Positions 3,739-60,561 of a stretch of DNA of 64,000 nt are shown here, one piece after another. Source of the DNA: Kocuria carniphila (GTDB lineage: Bacteria; Actinomycetota; Actinomycetes; Actinomycetales; Micrococcaceae); the NCBI RefSeq assembly GCF_004136555.1, contig NZ_NOIT01000011.1, forward strand, positions 62,001 through 126,000, in the 5' to 3' direction. Position 1 is the stretch's first letter, and every line of letters begins with the position of its first letter. Position numbers and translations under genes: made by a program. Below the pieces are notes generated by a model, which saw only the letters and a list, made by a program, of their open reading frames with translations, was not told the DNA's origin and ran no database searches.

Positions 3739-5591
3739 TCGCTGGGGGACTCCACGACCCGCGGTTCCGCCAGCGCCTCGGGAGCCGGCTGCTCCGTGAG
3801 CGCGGGAGCAAACTGCACGCCCGTGCGCTCGGTCAACTCATCCAGGGTCAACTGGTAAGTCTTGAACTCTTGCAGGTCCAGTGTCTCCAACCGGTCCAAG
3901 TTCTGGGTCAGCAGGAACGCCTTGGTGGTGAGCTGCCCGTCGGTCGTGTAGGCCAGGACCTTCCAGAACTCTCGAGGGACGCGCACGCCGCGGTATTCGC
4001 GGTCGTCATCGTGGAACACCGGCCCGCCGAAGACGCTCAGTCGCAGTCGGTCCACTTCGACCTGGTCGTAGACGGTGTCCTCGAGGCGGCCCCACAGGCC
4101 GCCGCGTGAGGATTGATTGAAGCTGTTGATCTGCGGGGAAATGTTGGTGAAGTAGAACGAGTCCTCGTTGGCTTGCTGCGCCTCCGCTCGCGGGCCCCAG
4201 GTGAGGTCCGCACGGCGCGCGAGGTGCCCGCGGTCCAGGTCGTTGGCCTTGTACACTTCGTCGCCCATCTGGTGCTCGGCATCGATCTGCGGGTCCAGCT
4301 GGAATTTGATGGAGCTGCGGGAGAGCTTCTTGAGTGACTCCCCATCGATGTTCCACGCAACCCACCGTGCCAGCCGTCGTGACGCACTCATGGTCAGAGA
4401 GAAGTGCGTGTGGTGAACGACCTCGCTACCGTCCTTGACCGGTGCGATGTCATCCGCGAGATCGGCGCTCAGGGTGGGCAGAGCGACCTCGTCCCCCAGG
4501 AAACTCGAATCGAAACCATGGCCGGGGGCGGCCGCGGCCTCCGCGCGGACCGTTTCGTACGTGATGGGGCTCAGGCTGATGTCGAGCTTCTCGAAGACCG
4601 AGGCCGGGAGGCACGCGATGGCGGATTCCGCGCCGCCGCCGGCGTCACCCGCGAAGTGCAGGCCGGCCATCACACGGGAGGTGCGACCATTGCCGCTGCG
4701 GAACATCCACACAGAGCCGGAATCGCCGCCCTCGCTCAGTTCCAACTCCTCGCCGCGGGAGGAGTCGGGGCCGATCTCGAAACCGCCGATGTTCCGTTCG
4801 CCGAAACCCTCGCCGTAATCGAGTTTGGTGAGCACGTCCACGCGCCGGACCACGCCGTACGTGACGCCGCTGGTGCGCCCGGATTTGACCACTTTGTCAC
4901 CGAGCTCGGGATCGCCGATCTCCTCAGGGATCACGTCCAGCTCCAGGATGGTCGGGTCGAAGCGACGATCGGTGAGTGACGTGATGGCGCAGTCACCGGC
5001 CGGCCCCAGGTGGGAGCGCACGAGCTCGCCCAGAGCGTTTTGGCCCACGCGGTTGTCGTCAAAGGTGCCCGGCTGAACCGTGCGCGCACCGATCTGGCTA
5101 CCCGGACCGTGCAACACATGCCAGTTGCTCAGTGCATAAGGAGTGCCGTCCTCGCGGCCGTAGACGATCGCGCCCAGGGTGCCCGCGGATGTGGTCACAT
5201 TGCTGATGCTCACGCCCGGTACCACCGGATCGTGCCGCCGGGTCCTGATCTTGGGCGCGACCTCCGGCACCAGCACGTAGCTCGGGACGTAGCTGACCTC
5301 GAGCACATCGGTGGGCACGGTCAGCTGTTCCACCTCGATGCTGTCCGGGAGGGCATGCGTGCCTTGCCGCGCCAGCTCATCCATCGGCAGTTTGCGATGC
5401 ACCGTGAACTGCACCGCGATCTGATCGGTGGTCTTACCGTCCACCACCTTGTATCCGACCCCGATCGAACTGACATTGGGGTCCTTCAAATACGCCTGGC
5501 CGCGCACCCGAATGAACTCGCGCAGAGTCCTGGTGTCCTTGGCCGAAAGGTTTCCGAGTTTCCGCTCTCCGGCGGGCTGTGAATTCGACAT
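3726..5591 (-). CDS. Trypsin-like serine protease fused to DNA/RNA non-specific endonuclease
   Basis: A 621-residue two-enzyme fusion without a signal peptide. Residues about 20-110 form an N-terminal domain. Residues about 130-335 are trypsin-like, with candidate triad His158 (SNWHVL), Asp200 (AGDCAI) and Ser291 (GGDSGS). Residues about 390-595 are a DNA/RNA non-specific (NUC/EndoG) nuclease, with the DRGH motif at 453-456, catalytic His456, metal ligand Asn492 and Glu504 after FTNISPQ. The tail (595-621) is Pro/Ala/Glu-rich. The protease may cleave a partner or release the nuclease; this is inference. The gene stands alone, with no immunity gene beside it. All catalytic residues seem intact. 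Confidence 0.85.
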   Translation of the reverse strand: MSNSQPAGERKLGNLSAKDTRTLREFIRVRGQAYLKDPNVSSIGVGYKVVDGKTTDQIAVQFTVHRKLPMDELARQGTHALPDSIEVEQLTVPTDVLEVSYVPSYVLVPEVAPKIRTRRHDPVVPGVSISNVTTSAGTLGAIVYGREDGTPYALSNWHVLHGPGSQIGARTVQPGTFDDNRVGQNALGELVRSHLGPAGDCAITSLTDRRFDPTILELDVIPEEIGDPELGDKVVKSGRTSGVTYGVVRRVDVLTKLDYGEGFGERNIGGFEIGPDSSRGEELELSEGGDSGSVWMFRSGNGRTSRVMAGLHFAGDAGGGAESAIACLPASVFEKLDISLSPITYETVRAEAAAAPGHGFDSSFLGDEVALPTLSADLADDIAPVKDGSEVVHHTHFSLTMSASRRLARWVAWNIDGESLKKLSRSSIKFQLDPQIDAEHQMGDEVYKANDLDRGHLARRADLTWGPRAEAQQANEDSFYFTNISPQINSFNQSSRGGLWGRLEDTVYDQVEVDRLRLSVFGGPVFHDDDREYRGVRVPREFWKVLAYTTDGQLTTKAFLLTQNLDRLETLDLQEFKTYQLTLDELTERTGVQFAPALTEQPAPEALAEPRVVESPSDVVW

Positions 5592-49653: not shown

Positions 49654-49758
49654 CCGCCGACGCCGCTCCGTCCCGCTAGCGAGGATCGGTCTCCTGGTGT
49701 CGGCCGCACCCGAATCTTCGTAGGATGCCGTCAACCGGGCAGCGAGGGAGAGAGGGAC

Positions 49759-55445: not shown

Positions 55446-56531
55446 ATGACTACTCTTTTCGACCCGCTGACGGTGGGCAAGTACGAACTGAATAACCGCG
55501 TGGTGATGGCCCCGCTTACCCGCATGCGGGCAGATGCGGACGGCGTGCCCACGGACATCATGGTGGAGTACTACGCCCAGCGTGCATCGGCCGGCCTGGT
55601 CGTTTCCGAGGGCACGTTCCCCACGCTGGTGAGCCGCGGTTACATGAACGAGCCGGGCCTGGCCACGGATGAGCAGGCTGCCGGCTGGGGTCGCGTGGCC
55701 GAGGCTGTGCACAAGCGCGGTGGCCTGTTCTTCATTCAAATCATGCATGCCGGACGTCTGGTCCACCCCGCGTTGACCGGCGGGCAGCAGGGTGAAGCTC
55801 CCAGTGCCATCGCGTCGGGTGAGCCGATTCACATTCCCGGCGGAAAGGAAGAGACTCCCGAGCCTCGCGCCCTGGAGCTCGACGAGCTGCCGCGCGTGAG
55901 GGACGAATTCGTGGCTGCGGCTCGCCGTGCCGTGGATGCCGGTGTGGACGGTGTGGAATTGCACAGCGCCAACGGCTACCTGCTGCAGCAGTTCCTGACC
56001 CCCGCGTCCAATCAGCGCACCGATGAATACGGAGGCTCCCCGGAGAATCGTGCGCGCTTCGTCATTGAGGTAACGCGCGCAGTGGCCGAGGAAATCGGCG
56101 CGGATCGCGTAGGCATCCGCATCTCTCCGCAGCACAACGTGCAGGGTGCTGTGGAGGCTGATCACGAGGACGCCGTGGCAACTTACGAAGCACTGGTGGA
56201 CGGCATCCAGGACCTGGGTCTGGCGTACCTGTCCATGTTGTACAAGGACATCGACAGCTCGTTCGTGCAGGATCTTCGCACTCGTTTCGGCGGCCCGTTC
56301 ATGCTCAACAGCGGTTTCAGCGAGCACACGGATCTGGAAGAGGCCGAGCACATCGTGCAGGACAACCTCGCCGACGCCGTGGTGGTCGGCCGTGCGCTCA
56401 TCGCCAACCCGGACTTGGTTGAGCGCTGGCGCGACGGCCTGGAGCTCAACAAGCCGGACAGCAAGACCTTCTACGGTGGCGGGGCTCGCGGTTACACCGA
56501 CTACCCGTTCGCGAAGGTAGCGGTGCAGTAG
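55446..56531 (+). CDS. Old Yellow Enzyme-family alkene reductase
   Basis: A 361-residue FMN enzyme. The N-terminal LFDPLTVGKYELNNRVVMAPLTRMRA, the substrate-binding ELHSANGYLLQQFLTPASNQRTDEYGGS and C-terminal VVVGRALIANPDLVER match the NemA/YqjM-like group. It reduces activated C=C bonds of enones, maleimides or nitro esters with NADPH. AAGGA lies before ATG 55446. It converges on the GMC gene across repeat copy 1. Confidence 0.94.
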   Translation: MTTLFDPLTVGKYELNNRVVMAPLTRMRADADGVPTDIMVEYYAQRASAGLVVSEGTFPTLVSRGYMNEPGLATDEQAAGWGRVAEAVHKRGGLFFIQIMHAGRLVHPALTGGQQGEAPSAIASGEPIHIPGGKEETPEPRALELDELPRVRDEFVAAARRAVDAGVDGVELHSANGYLLQQFLTPASNQRTDEYGGSPENRARFVIEVTRAVAEEIGADRVGIRISPQHNVQGAVEADHEDAVATYEALVDGIQDLGLAYLSMLYKDIDSSFVQDLRTRFGGPFMLNSGFSEHTDLEEAEHIVQDNLADAVVVGRALIANPDLVERWRDGLELNKPDSKTFYGGGARGYTDYPFAKVAVQ

Positions 56532-56571
56532 GTCCTTGCGCGCATCCTTGCCCCTAGTGGGCTTGGCTTCG

Positions 56572-56693
56572 CACGTGGTGGGCCGTTAGAGCCGCCACCT
56601 ACACCTCAGGGGCCGGTGGAACCTCTTTCCTGTGTGGAAAGGGTTCCAACGGCCCCTGATGTGTGTCCGGGGGTTCCAAAGCGCCACTAAACG
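56572..56693. repeat. 122-bp palindromic intergenic element, copy 1
   Basis: Starts with CACGTG and contains four related boxes: GTTAGAGCC (56585), GGTGGAACC (56615), then in reverse GGTTCCAAC (56642) and GGTTCCAAA (56672). The spacing is 30, 27 and 30 bp. The inner pair forms a hairpin with TTTCC/GGAAA on top. It lies between the convergent OYE and GMC genes. Copies 2 and 3 have the same architecture. Confidence 0.85.
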
Positions 56694-56697
56694 CGGC

Positions 56698-58308
56698 CTA
56701 CTCCTCATCCAGCAGCATCCGTGCGCCCTTCTCGCCGATCATCGCCGACGGCGCGTTGGTGTTTCCCGTGGTCACGGACGGCATGATCGACGCGTCAATC
56801 ACCCGCAGGCCCTCCACTCCGTAGACCTTGAAAGTCTCAGGGTCCACGACCGCCATAGAGTCGGTGCCCATCCTGCAGGTGCCGACTTGGTGGTGATAGG
56901 TGGTTACCGCCCGGTCCATGTAGGCGTTCTCTTCCTCCTCGGTGGCAAGCTCGGACTCGGGGTAGACCTCCCGCGCACCCCAGTCCTCGGCCAGCGGTGC
57001 GGCCTTGACCATCTCCCGGGCTTGCCGGAACGAGGCTCGCAGAGATTCCCGATCCCGCGGATCCGCGAAAATCTGCGGATCGTAATCGGCAGGGTCGGTG
57101 CTGCTGGGCCCAGTGAGCCGAATAGTCCCGCGCGAATAGGGGCGCACCAGGCCACTGTGCAGCGTGAACGCATTGGCGGGCCCGGTCATGTTGTCGTCGT
57201 ACATCGGGACGCAGAAGTGGATGGGCTGGGTGTCCGGTCGGTCCTGCTCCGGTCCCGAGCGCCAGAACAGGTGCGTCTGCGATACCGATTGCTCGTCCAC
57301 CTTGTGATCGATGGCCCGGTTGGTGGCTTCCGCGATCACCGGCAGCAGTAGATGGTCGTGCAAGTTCTCACCCACGCCCGGCAGGTCAACGACCGGCTTG
57401 ATTCCTACCTCTCGCAAATGGTCTGCCGGGCCGATTCCGGAACGCATCAGAATCTTGGGGCTGTCCAGGGCACCGGCGCACAGGATGACCTGATCAGCGC
57501 GGATCACCTCACCGGTACCATCTGCCGTGGCCGCGGGGTCGTCCGATTCCACGCCTTCGACCTCTTGGTTGTCTCCGGCATGCAGCTCCACGCCGACCAC
57601 CGCGCCGTCCTCGATCAGCAACTTCTCCACGATCGCCCCGGTACGAACCGTGATTTTCCCCGCCTCGACAAGCGGCTTCACGTACGCGGTGTACGTGGTG
57701 CAGCGTTTTCCGTTCCGGACGGTCAGCTGCTCGTAGGAGACACCGTCCTGTTGGTCACCGTTGTAATCGGGATTGAACTCCACACCCACCGCCTCCGCCG
57801 CGGCAATGATCGACTCGAAGATCGGGCTGCGTTCGTAGTTGCCCACCACGGGAATCGGGCCGTCCGCGCCGCGGGGGTTGAGATTGTCAGGCGACGCGGC
57901 GCCGTCGTAATTTTCCAAGGCCTCGAAAACGGGGCCGACGTCGCTCCAAGACCACCCGTCGCAGCCCGCCGCGGCCCAGTCGTCGTAGTCGAGAGGGTTA
58001 CCTCGAACCCAGATGGATGCGTTGAGCGCGTGGGATCCGCCCAAAACGCGACCGCGTGGCCAGTGGATGACCCGGTCGGACGCGTGCTCTTGCGGGACGG
58101 TGAAGTAATCCCAGTCCTCAGCGCCGTGCCATAGTTCGCCCAGGCGGGGGAGTTCTGCAATGGCGGGGTTCGTGTCCTGCCCGCCGGCCTCCAGAAGTGT
58201 CACGTTGTGGCCGACCGCGGCCAACCTCCCCGCAACGATGGATCCTGCCGTTCCTGCGCCAATCACCACGGTGTGCTGGCCGGATTTGTTCGAATTCGTG
58301 TGTGCCAT
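56698..58308 (-). CDS. GMC-family FAD oxidoreductase (choline dehydrogenase-like)
   Basis: A 536-residue enzyme. VVIGAGTAGSIVAGRLA binds FAD, GRVLGGSHALNASIWVRG and VILCAGALDSPKILMRSGIG are the two GMC signatures, and YHHQVGTCRMG holds the catalytic histidine. It oxidises an alcohol to an aldehyde or ketone. The substrate is unknown; choline and long-chain or aryl alcohols are the usual choices. No good ribosome-binding site precedes the ATG. It lies between repeat copies 1 and 2. Confidence 0.93.
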   Translation of the reverse strand: MAHTNSNKSGQHTVVIGAGTAGSIVAGRLAAVGHNVTLLEAGGQDTNPAIAELPRLGELWHGAEDWDYFTVPQEHASDRVIHWPRGRVLGGSHALNASIWVRGNPLDYDDWAAAGCDGWSWSDVGPVFEALENYDGAASPDNLNPRGADGPIPVVGNYERSPIFESIIAAAEAVGVEFNPDYNGDQQDGVSYEQLTVRNGKRCTTYTAYVKPLVEAGKITVRTGAIVEKLLIEDGAVVGVELHAGDNQEVEGVESDDPAATADGTGEVIRADQVILCAGALDSPKILMRSGIGPADHLREVGIKPVVDLPGVGENLHDHLLLPVIAEATNRAIDHKVDEQSVSQTHLFWRSGPEQDRPDTQPIHFCVPMYDDNMTGPANAFTLHSGLVRPYSRGTIRLTGPSSTDPADYDPQIFADPRDRESLRASFRQAREMVKAAPLAEDWGAREVYPESELATEEEENAYMDRAVTTYHHQVGTCRMGTDSMAVVDPETFKVYGVEGLRVIDASIMPSVTTGNTNAPSAMIGEKGARMLLDEE

Positions 58309-58382
58309 GAAGACATGATGCGCCTAAATGTGATCTGCGTCTCGTCCTGCCGTGCATGGGTTTTGGTGCTCCGTGCATGGTG

Positions 58383-58504
58383 CACCCGGTGTGTTGTTAG
58401 AGCCATCGTCTACACATGAGGTGTCGTTGGAACCCTCATCCCTTGTGGGAAAGGTTCTAACGGCACCTGGTGTGCATCTGAGGGTTCTAATCTGCCACCA
58501 GACG
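58383..58504. repeat. 122-bp palindromic intergenic element, copy 2
   Basis: Begins CACCCG where the other copies have CACGTG. Boxes are GTTAGAGCC (58396), GTTGGAACC (58426), then reversed GGTTCTAAC (58453) and GGTTCTAAT (58483), again 30/27/30 bp apart. The centre pairs CCC with GGG around TTGT. Its last 18 bases are the final codons and stop of the ASCH gene. Confidence 0.85.
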
Positions 58505-58891
58505 CTCCACCACCCGGAACTCCTGCATCACCACCGGTGTGCTGTCATCAAGGTGACCAGCGGGGGAGTGGGCGGCCCAGAACACTTCGTGGTCCCGGCG
58601 CCAGTCCGCCAACGAGGTGTGGCCTTCGCCTTCGGCCACCACATGGGACCAGGGGATATCTCCCAGGGGCACGACGGTGACCGCAGCTGTCTCGAGAACA
58701 GCAACGCCGCGGTCACTGGAATCCAGCAAGAGCTCCAACTCACCTGGTTCAGGCAGTGGTTCACCTTCAATCTCGTAGTCCGAAACCAGCGAACTCGTCG
58801 CCGTCTTCCGGCCTGCCACTATCAGCGACACCAGTCGATCCCGTAGCGGCCCCGGCGGACCGAACTCGGCGGACCTCACACCCTGTTCCAT
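58487..58891 (-). CDS. ASCH-domain protein
   Basis: A 134-residue protein of the ASCH/PUA-like fold. LVSLIVAGRKTATSSLVSDYEIEGEPLPEPGEL is the family signature, with the GRKTAT segment binding the ligand. Members bind RNA or hydrolyse N4-acetylcytidine; this one is unassigned. Its last six codons (58487-58504) lie inside repeat copy 2, which also provides the stop codon. The upstream start abuts repeat copy 3. Confidence 0.88.
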   Translation of the reverse strand: MEQGVRSAEFGPPGPLRDRLVSLIVAGRKTATSSLVSDYEIEGEPLPEPGELELLLDSSDRGVAVLETAAVTVVPLGDIPWSHVVAEGEGHTSLADWRRDHEVFWAAHSPAGHLDDSTPVVMQEFRVVERLVAD

Positions 58892-58925
58892 GTCCCAAGT
58901 ATGGCGTGACGTCTCACCTGCACCT

Positions 58926-59048
58926 CACGTGGTGCGCCACTAGAACCGCTCCCTCCATCTGAGGCGCCGTTGGAACCCTTTCTGCCCAGCGGGAAGGGTT
59001 CCAACGACACCTGAAGCGCATCTAAGGGTTCTAACGACGCCTCACGTG
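58926..59048. repeat. 123-bp palindromic intergenic element, copy 3
   Basis: The most symmetric copy, bounded by CACGTG at both ends (58926-58931 and 59043-59048). Boxes are ACTAGAACC (58939), GTTGGAACC (58969), then reversed GGTTCCAAC (58997) and GGTTCTAAC (59027), 30/28/30 bp apart. The inner stem is a perfect 12-bp hairpin (GTTGGAACCCTT/AAGGGTTCCAAC) capped by CCC-AGC-GGG. Confidence 0.88.
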
Positions 59049-59066
59049 TAAAGGAATGCCCCACCG

Positions 59067-59125
59067 AACCACCAAGTACTTGGGTCCCGAGGGTTCGAAA
59101 CAAACCGCCAGGTGCTTGAGCCCCG
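59067..59125. repeat. 23-bp direct repeat pair next to copy 3
   Basis: The 23-bp units at 59067-59089 and 59103-59125 share 18 bases and start AACCRCCARGTRCTTGRG; all five differences are transitions. Their period is 36 bp. The first contains the perfect palindrome CCAAGTACTTGG (59072-59083) and is flanked by CGAACC/GGTTCG. This belongs to the 421-bp gap between the ASCH and MFS genes. Confidence 0.6.
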
Positions 59126-59177
59126 TCTGCCCCAGCGACCCCCCAGGCACGCACCCATGACCGGGCCTACGCACACT

Positions 59178-59208
59178 CCCACCCGTGACCAACCCCTCCC
59201 CTCCACCC
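59178..59208 (-). other. Putative G-quadruplex motif on the minus strand
   Basis: On the plus strand five C-runs (3, 3, 4, 4 and 3 bases) lie within 31 bp. On the minus strand, which is the template strand for the MFS gene at 59314, this gives five G-runs with loops of 4, 1, 8 and 1 bases, which fits a stable G-quadruplex. The surrounding 60 bases are markedly C-rich on the plus strand. Confidence 0.45.
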
Positions 59209-59313
59209 AGCGCCAACCACCCGATTCGCGAGTACCATTTGAAGCGAACTTAGAGGGATCGGTCCGCACGTGTGGTCGGGTGTGCGGTGGTTTGATGTAC
59301 CCGGAGGATCCTT

Positions 59314-60561
59314 TTGCCCAGCTCGACCGCCCCGCAGGCGCAGACGCCACTCTCAGCACAGGATTCGCTCGTTGCCGCAGGTGGCTGGCCGTTCCTGATC
59401 ACGGCCTTCATCGGTCGCCTGCCTGCGGCCACGCTGCAACTCGGGCTGCTGCTGTACGTCAGCGGCGCTGGACTGAGTCTTGGTCTGGCCGGCATCACGG
59501 TGGCAGCCGTGGGACTTGGTTCAGCAGTTGGCGCCCCGTTGGTCGGCAGGCTCATCGACCATTTCGGTCCGCTGCCCGTGGTTGTCAGCGCAACGCTCAT
59601 CCAGTTGCTGAGCCTCACGGCCCTGCTCCTGACGGTCGTCAATGACGGGCCCACCCCCCTCATCCTCGTGTGCGCTGCCCTGGTCGGTTCCGCGAACCCG
59701 CAAGTGGGCGCGATCGCGAGGGCGCACTGGTCGGGCTTGGCGCGGCGGCGTCGGCAACCGCGACTGATCAGCCGCGCGCTGGGCTACGAAACTGCCTGCG
59801 ACGAAACCAGCTTCATCCTGGGTCCCGTGATTGCCGGTCTGCTCGTCGGATTACTCGGTCCCAACCCCGCTCTGCTCACCATCATGGCGTGGGTGATCGT
59901 GGGCCAGGGCGCGTTCATCATGTACCTGGCGCGCCACCGCACCGAGCACGGCGCGGCCACGGTCGAGGACACTGCGGCGGGTGGCATCGGCAAGATTTCG
60001 ATCGCCAAGGCGCTGCCGCCCATGATGGTGTGCCTGTGCGTGGGTACCGTGTTCGGCTCGACCCAGACCGCGCTGACCGCCGTCAACGTGCTGCGCGGCA
60101 CGGAAGCTTACACCGGTGTCATTTACGGCTTCATGGGTGCGGGCAGCGCGGTCGCAAGCATTCTGGTCTCCCGCCTTCCCGAACGCTTCCCCTTGTCCTT
60201 GCGCGTGGCGATCGGCGCCTCCATCATCGGCCTAACTTGCCTGGGTCTGGTCACCCTGCCCAGCACCCCGGTCATCGCCGGCCTGTTCGTGATCATCGGC
60301 GTGGGCGTGGGCACCATGCTCGTGAGCTCGTTCGGTCGCGGCGAGCGGATCGCGCCGTCGCACCGCATCGCCTCGGTGATGACCATGCTCACCACCTGCC
60401 TTGTGCTTGGCGTCTCGCTCGGCGCTGCCTTGGGCGGCGTGCTGTCCGTGCAGCCCGAGCGCGGGTTCATGCTCACGATGGCCGCGGCCGTGGTCGGCAT
60501 CCTCGCCTCCTTTGCCCTCCACATCACCAAACCCGGACGGCTCGCCACTCATCAGGAGTGA
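59314..60561 (+). CDS. MFS transporter
   Basis: A 415-residue protein with 12 predicted helices (GGWPFLITAFIGRLPAATLQLGLLLYV, then GRLIDHFGPLPVVV as the loop 2-3 motif). It looks like a drug/metabolite exporter of the sugar-efflux or YcaD-like type; the substrate is unknown. The start is TTG 59314 with GGAGG six bases upstream. The 421-bp region before it holds repeat copy 3, the direct repeats and the G-rich tract. Confidence 0.88.
   Translation: MPSSTAPQAQTPLSAQDSLVAAGGWPFLITAFIGRLPAATLQLGLLLYVSGAGLSLGLAGITVAAVGLGSAVGAPLVGRLIDHFGPLPVVVSATLIQLLSLTALLLTVVNDGPTPLILVCAALVGSANPQVGAIARAHWSGLARRRRQPRLISRALGYETACDETSFILGPVIAGLLVGLLGPNPALLTIMAWVIVGQGAFIMYLARHRTEHGAATVEDTAAGGIGKISIAKALPPMMVCLCVGTVFGSTQTALTAVNVLRGTEAYTGVIYGFMGAGSAVASILVSRLPERFPLSLRVAIGASIIGLTCLGLVTLPSTPVIAGLFVIIGVGVGTMLVSSFGRGERIAPSHRIASVMTMLTTCLVLGVSLGAALGGVLSVQPERGFMLTMAAAVVGILASFALHITKPGRLATHQE

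Follow-up and report, generated by a model that had tools for sequence, protein, structure and literature searches.

A palindromic element of about 122 letters forms a dispersed family that occupies 41 places in the 3.42-Mb genome of the window (the whole 64-kb stretch of DNA analyzed here), and the family belongs to one small Kocuria group of four genomes. Palindromes scattered between genes are commonly interpreted as selfish elements or as hairpins, and the orthologous copies available here separate the two. What has been conserved is a recognition site, repeated with fixed spacing, and not the letters that pairing would require. From sequence comparison, we propose, at a probability that we would set about even, that each copy is a four-site docking element for a putative sequence-specific DNA-binding protein.

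Anatomy and distribution of the element

In each element, a 26-bp unit, ACACCTGAGGYGYCGTTAGAACCCTT, occurs twice in direct and twice in inverted orientation, with the left pair of units pointing inward and the right pair likewise inward. The unit is no palindrome by itself, and its conserved positions extend over more than two helical turns. Unit starts lie 30/38/30 apart in nearly every copy of the window's own genome, and the anchor-to-anchor spacing across the four genomes is constant in 99/103, 97/103, and 99/103 copies, the center of the element being of fixed length as well (97/103). Inner units carry about 30 bits of information and outer units about 20 bits. At one locus (L074, ~3748-3852), additional repeats of GAACTACCGCCCSAGATGTC lie next to a copy, and arrays can thus exceed four units.

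A preliminary description reported three copies in the window, all of which are borne out; they are listed here with the genes that flank them, the two oxidoreductases being named from their reading frames.

55446..56531, plus strand: presumably a flavin oxidoreductase-like gene, upstream of copy 1
56572..56693, no strand: copy 1, between convergent genes; 26-bp units at 56571(+), 56601(+), 56639(-), 56669(-)
56698..58308, minus strand: presumably a GMC-type (choline dehydrogenase-like) oxidoreductase gene, between copies 1 and 2
58383..58504, no strand: copy 2; 26-bp units at 58382(+), 58412(+), 58450(-), 58480(-)
58487..58891, minus strand: ASCH-domain gene (PF04266), between copies 2 and 3
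58926..59048, no strand: copy 3, between divergent genes; 26-bp units at 58925(+), 58955(+), 58994(-), 59024(-)
59314..60561, plus strand: MFS transporter gene (PF07690), on the far side of copy 3

The preliminary description was built around four GTTRGAACC boxes per copy, which prove to be the inner ends of the longer 26-bp units. The boxes are present at 56585/56615/56642/56672 in copy 1, 58396/58426/58453/58483 in copy 2, and 58939/58969/58997/59027 in copy 3, and their fixed spacing holds (30/27/30, 30/27/30, and 30/28/30, respectively), but only 6 of the 12 are exact, 5 having one mismatch and 1 having two. Exact GTTRGAACC occurs 6 times in the 64-kb window, versus 0.76 expected, and 0/100 shuffles contained at least 6. 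A CACGTG-like end, also described, is seen in the window copies, yet across the family it amounts to a weak preference.

Copies 1 and 2 have orthologues in all three relatives that carry the family (Kocuria atrinae C3-8, Kocuria sp. cx-455, and the metagenome-assembled genome [MAG] S36M_Sa_5), and copy 3 has orthologues in K. atrinae and cx-455; none was found in the corresponding contig of the MAG. When the window copies are aligned with these orthologues, most of the boxes prove intact; among the exceptions is a CC altered in the MAG's copy 1. The flavin oxidoreductase-like gene is conserved in other Kocuria. The ASCH gene, whose 3' terminus shares 18 bases with the end of copy 2, is kept in the own genome and K. 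atrinae and largely missing in cx-455, where the deletion of its middle lies inside the gene and not at the elements, and in the MAG, where most of the gene and copy 3 are missing. The copy 1 place in two other Kocuria genomes (loci L127 and L125) holds a plain hairpin with 25- to 34-bp arms and a gene that we take to be cold-shock-protein-like.

The preliminary description looked to a search of the wider genome and its relatives, and such a search, run with a sequence-only model made from 14 own copies, reveals a dispersed family well beyond three copies. The 91 own-genome matches over both strands merged into the 41 places, and the relatives have 33 (K. atrinae C3-8, 79% complete; G002), 24 (cx-455; G012), and 16 copies (MAG S36M_Sa_5, 94% complete; G023). 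These counts leave out seven partial places in the own genome (nine rows, e.g., C2:121023, C11:57032, C22:154233, and C24:259) and one match in the MAG (G023:C72:4301). Of 114 copies in all, 107 (>110 nt with 6-nt flanks) were extracted and 103 (>118 nt) were aligned.

The family model gave no match at an E value of 0.001 in 21 other Kocuria genomes and 14 genomes of other families. Under stricter filters, a scan of 396 genomes of the order found strong matches in the own genome and one weak match in each of two others (24.7 and 21.0 bits), which we take as chance. A strict inner-box pattern, run against one genome for each of 84,980 species in a scan that left out records near the own genome, matched only in the three relatives. 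In the relatives, 2, 1, and 1 known copies fit this pattern, and in the own genome 7/41, so that a more loosely built family elsewhere could have gone unseen in that scan. The preliminary description recognized no known family, and within positions 56000 to 59500 there is indeed no Rfam match above the gathering score, the best subthreshold match touching a copy reaching 22.2 bits versus the 68 needed. Literature on Kocuria repeats, covered as titles and abstract beginnings with most subscription journals outside the scope, contained nothing on such repeats.

Conservation and base pairing in orthologous copies

Selection was assessed with 23 pairs of own and K. atrinae copies matched by synteny alone, with no identity filter. 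Pairs came from loci with one copy each or with equal numbers taken in order; loci with unequal copy numbers were excluded, except for two single pairings (C4 and the two ends of C47:98). Twenty-one recognition columns, picked as informative in the cx-455 and MAG copies only, were compared with 28 low-information columns. The recognition columns were changed in 16/482 cells (3.3%) and the low-information columns in 172/643 (26.7%), which is not the decay expected of a neutral miniature inverted-repeat transposable element (MITE) after insertion. An earlier form of the test used 25 reciprocal best own/K. atrinae pairs with at least 0.74 identity and gave 11/523 versus 197/696, with three of the 25 pairs compared in a wrong or arguable orientation; since an identity filter could favor conserved pairs, the test was repeated on the synteny-only pairs.

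The broader set of 40 pairs with at least 0.74 identity, which includes some local duplicates matched to one partner (34 are reciprocal, 25 of them own/K. atrinae), has nine single columns unchanged in all 39 to 40 pairs; linker columns were changed in 22 to 43% of pairs and apex columns 64 to 75 in 15 to 40%. In three synteny pairs, the identity (0.60 to 0.66) is at the level of unrelated copies, and replacement of a copy may have occurred; these pairs were kept in the count. Detection bias is an unlikely explanation, because one lost position costs few bits and most copies score 40 to 90, although the test is blind to wholly lost copies. Given that recognition columns are far less changed than low-information columns, the copies of the element are under purifying selection. 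That the key letters have stayed largely unchanged since the species split suggests that a protein grips the elements.

The preliminary description instead argued for selection on structure, from hairpin tops that differ between copies yet still pair. On either strand, copies 1 to 3 do fold much more stably than shuffled sequences (z scores of -5.4 to -7.8). Over 103 aligned copies, a set that includes related copies, the tops nevertheless pair at the shuffle level (0.547 versus 0.545), the linkers below it (0.367 versus 0.423), and the outer arms about at it (0.688 versus 0.677), while the inner arms have a paired fraction of 0.785 versus 0.759 when shuffled. When the set is reduced to 60 mutually dissimilar copies, pairing of the outer arms is at the chance level (936 versus 933 pairs), and the inner arms have 1196 pairs of 1558, versus 1170 shuffled (3/1000 shuffles), or 1034 versus 1012 when only Watson-Crick pairs are counted (31/1000 shuffles), with the surplus mainly at column pairs 46-93, 48-91, and 53-86.

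Selected pairing would need changes on one side to be answered on the other. The 40 orthologous pairs have three Watson-Crick-preserving double changes in the inner arms, versus 0 to 5 at slid registers, and the outer arms of orthologous pairs have five pair-keeping double changes, versus 2 to 7; a dedicated covariation tool scored 14 copies at 0.203, versus 0.206 shuffled. With no excess of compensatory changes, and with pairing explained by column composition, the argument from structure fails. Of the structure-preserving changes that the preliminary description had in mind, a slight inner-arm covariation is present, whereas tops, linkers, and outer arms are at or below chance. A weak selection for symmetry could lie behind this residue, as could copying from one arm to the other at replication forks. 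On these pairing and covariation counts, we rejected RNA structure as the feature under selection.

The same counts bear on an RNA-level element, that is, a bidirectional terminator or a 3'-end hairpin that would stabilize or process transcripts of converging genes. Copies do lie at transcript ends, fold strongly on both strands, and covary slightly in their inner arms. However, compensatory changes are not in excess, apex and linkers pair no more than by chance, positions 56400 to 59400 gave no match to an intrinsic terminator (a stem followed by a T run), and 12/27 intervals have a separate long hairpin beside the element. We regard the RNA-level explanation as improbable.

Chromosomal setting, multiplication, and proposed function

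With genes called by a simple codon-usage script, 0/41 own copies lie wholly inside a called gene. Among the classifiable intervals with copies, tRNA genes counted, 17/24 are convergent, 5 are tandem, and 2 are divergent, versus a background of 12/57 convergent neighboring gene pairs in the window (binomial P of 2e-7; 4e-5 against the share of intergenic length). Nearby genes include those for trigger factor, S9, GAPDH, ndk, pyruvate kinase, secG, and tRNAs; the 30/48 flanking genes scanned are a mixed set with many housekeeping genes and no common theme.

Convergent placement, along with apparent conservation that needs no host benefit, would also follow if biased DNA uptake spread the element by molecular drive. 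In Neisseria and Haemophilus, uptake sequences likewise sit as inverted pairs at convergent gene ends, and they number hundreds to thousands of copies per genome. Forty-one copies per genome is far below such numbers, and the Kocuria unit is much longer; of all the explanations considered, we give this one the least credence.

For position along the chromosome, loci were mapped on a congener whose record begins with a dnaA-like frame, recognized by eye, and whose single dif-like site, presumably the terminus mark, was located by a dif-like pattern. Locus L001 was ambiguous; L069, L072, L073, and L081 had no match; and L077 had a short match only. Eight of the 19 mapped loci lie within 245 kb of the dif-like site (P = 0.014; Kolmogorov-Smirnov [KS] P = 0.03), a post hoc comparison, and the 14 mapped loci shared with cx-455 give a nonsignificant 5/14 (KS P = 0.40). 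The terminus bias is weak.

Comparison of loci between genomes reveals both stability and turnover. Of the loci in cx-455, 15/17 have a match among the own loci (one displaced), and 9/26 own loci are without a counterpart in cx-455. At L062, L068, L073, and L074, the own genome has copies where cx-455 and the MAG have none; at L062, L068, and L074, the own genome has 311 to 985 bp with copies between alignable flanks, and cx-455 and the MAG have 0 to 78 bp. Because the outgroups are without the family, own-only loci fit gain or loss alike. By eye, the 0.3-kb insert at L062 is bordered by a GTCAGY direct repeat, and L073, L068, L074, and L064 have no clean target duplication.

Copies also multiply in place. 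Near a contig end of the own genome (G000:C46:178451-179142; L008) five copies stand in tandem with a period of 148 bp, and one copy was found at that place in each relative. Such arrays, and copy numbers that differ between species, would be expected of neutral minisatellite-like debris growing by slippage and recombination. We consider this explanation highly improbable, as evidenced by the fixed spacing and by a change rate that is eightfold lower at recognition columns.

The main rival is a mobile palindrome: a MITE or foldback element made of two fused transposon ends with two tandem transposase sites each, its transposase lost or unrecognized, and perhaps put to host use later. Tn7-, Mu-, and IS21-type ends also have tandem transposase sites. 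The Kocuria element has terminal inverted repeats, no coding capacity, and many copies, and its intergenic placement, restriction to one clade, four transposase-site-like repeats, own-only loci, and direct repeat at L062 all fit a mobile origin. In cx-455, moreover, a 3.7-kb block lies between two copy-1-like elements (L082, 6768-10678), with genes that we take to be LysR-, metallo-beta-lactamase (MBL)-fold-, and MFS-like. The block is absent at the same place in the own genome, K. atrinae, the MAG, and the six other Kocuria genomes compared; its best relatives elsewhere are about 70 to 73% identical, and the own relative is on contig C13, where the family model finds no copy. Static orthologous copies of a MITE should, however, decay, yet the recognition columns have been held; 15/17 cx-455 loci are shared; the center is also fixed in length (97/103); and the other compared sites, judged by eye, are without a clean target duplication. 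The preliminary description stated that no transposase is present, which holds for the 30/48 flanking genes scanned. No parental transposon turned up there, nor among phages and plasmids searched with copy 3 as the query, nor among viral contigs searched with the strict inner-box pattern. We consider a mobile palindrome less likely than docking as an explanation of the present-day copies, and it is possibly the origin of a site now kept by the host.

The docking element corresponds to the multi-dimer protein binding site that was among the options of the preliminary description, and it is the best supported of them, given the repeated unit, fixed geometry, and conserved positions. It draws on the kept recognition columns, rigid pitch, shared loci, convergent intergenic placement, absence of a compensatory excess, and separate long hairpins in 12/27 intervals. 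Four subunits, or two dimers, would bind one rigid array as a single complex. Less certainly, the complex might act in cis where transcription units converge, serving to control topology, to set boundaries, or to organize the chromosome, much as has been proposed for gyrase- or IHF-binding BIMEs of enterobacteria. The family would multiply mainly by local duplication and now and then reach new intergenic sites.

Several observations count against docking. The convergent location would also be expected if insertions were merely tolerated there, cx-455 has nothing to match 9/26 own loci, and the bias toward the terminus, a post hoc finding, loses significance when the shared loci are taken by themselves. 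Four independent sites do not predict the slight inner-arm covariation, a chromosome site with a housekeeping role would not be expected in four genomes only, and three of the synteny pairs differ as much as unrelated copies do.

Other repeats occur nearby. A second inverted-unit array, E2, has units of approximately GCGAACCTCTGCCNNAAATGTC, first on the minus and then on the plus strand, some 44 nt from each other; a third unit often follows after 28 to 39 nt. It is found at L063 (3606-3700 and 4074-4170), L080 (5482-5590), and L068 (3737-3947) and in the relatives at L100, L101, and L151 (G002), L144 and L183 (G012), and L184 (G023); at several loci, E2 and the first family share an intergenic interval. 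No E2 array was found in the 64-kb window at up to 3 mismatches. A short motif, approximately GCGGCGTCGKCGGCG, recurs at L080 (5309 and 5360), L065 (3935), L073 (3918), L004 (3416), and window positions 49655 and 55299; in 249 kb, at no more than 1 mismatch, it occurs 23 times between genes, in 11 cases no more than 600 bp from a copy, and 28 times in called genes.

A more far-reaching proposal, which we consider rather unlikely, is that the elements are the cis half of a chromosome-organizing system of this Kocuria group, in which a clade-specific protein would sit on the arrays of four sites where genes converge, most densely near the terminus, and set topological or segregation boundaries, with E2 read by a paralogue. 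Copy 3 is a ready bait for the putative DNA-binding protein, and with that protein the role of tens of such sites on a chromosome would become testable.

Comparison with known repeat systems

Integron attC sites were considered and set aside, as attC boxes face the other way. ERIC elements, the imperfect palindromes of about 127 bp in enterobacteria, resemble the Kocuria element, by description, in length, imperfect palindromy, and intergenic dispersal. The Kocuria element differs in belonging to another phylum and in its four-unit plan, which ERIC elements are not known to have; description rather than sequence sets the two apart.

Correia elements are MITEs that, like the Kocuria element, are short, noncoding, and multicopy, with inverted ends. 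In the Kocuria element, by contrast, the whole is made of ends, the center is fixed, recognition positions are conserved in orthologues, and the limited searches made found no parent transposon.

Chromosome-organizing sites such as matS and those of SlmA and Noc are single short sites. The Kocuria elements are like them in amounting to tens of predicted protein sites per chromosome at defined places and unlike them in being four-unit arrays with a weak terminus bias.

Closest in setting are REP sequences and BIMEs, with which the Kocuria element shares intergenic position, inverted units, and location at the 3' ends of genes. REP/BIME repeats form GTAG- and CGTC-tagged families, often lie between convergent or unidirectional genes, and are often species restricted (PMC3733652). 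ACACCTGAGGYGYCGTTAGAACCCTT is not a 20- to 40-bp self-palindromic unit with a GTAG or CGTC tag. A REP family driven by a RAYT transposase was rejected, since 0/27 Kocuria genomes have a RAYT gene (PF01797) in a search that was positive in 5/14 control genomes. REP units are each 20- to 40-bp palindromes, whereas the Kocuria unit is not self-palindromic and stands four to an element at fixed pitch. Gyrase, IHF, and DNA polymerase I are reported to bind REP sequences (PMC1525189).
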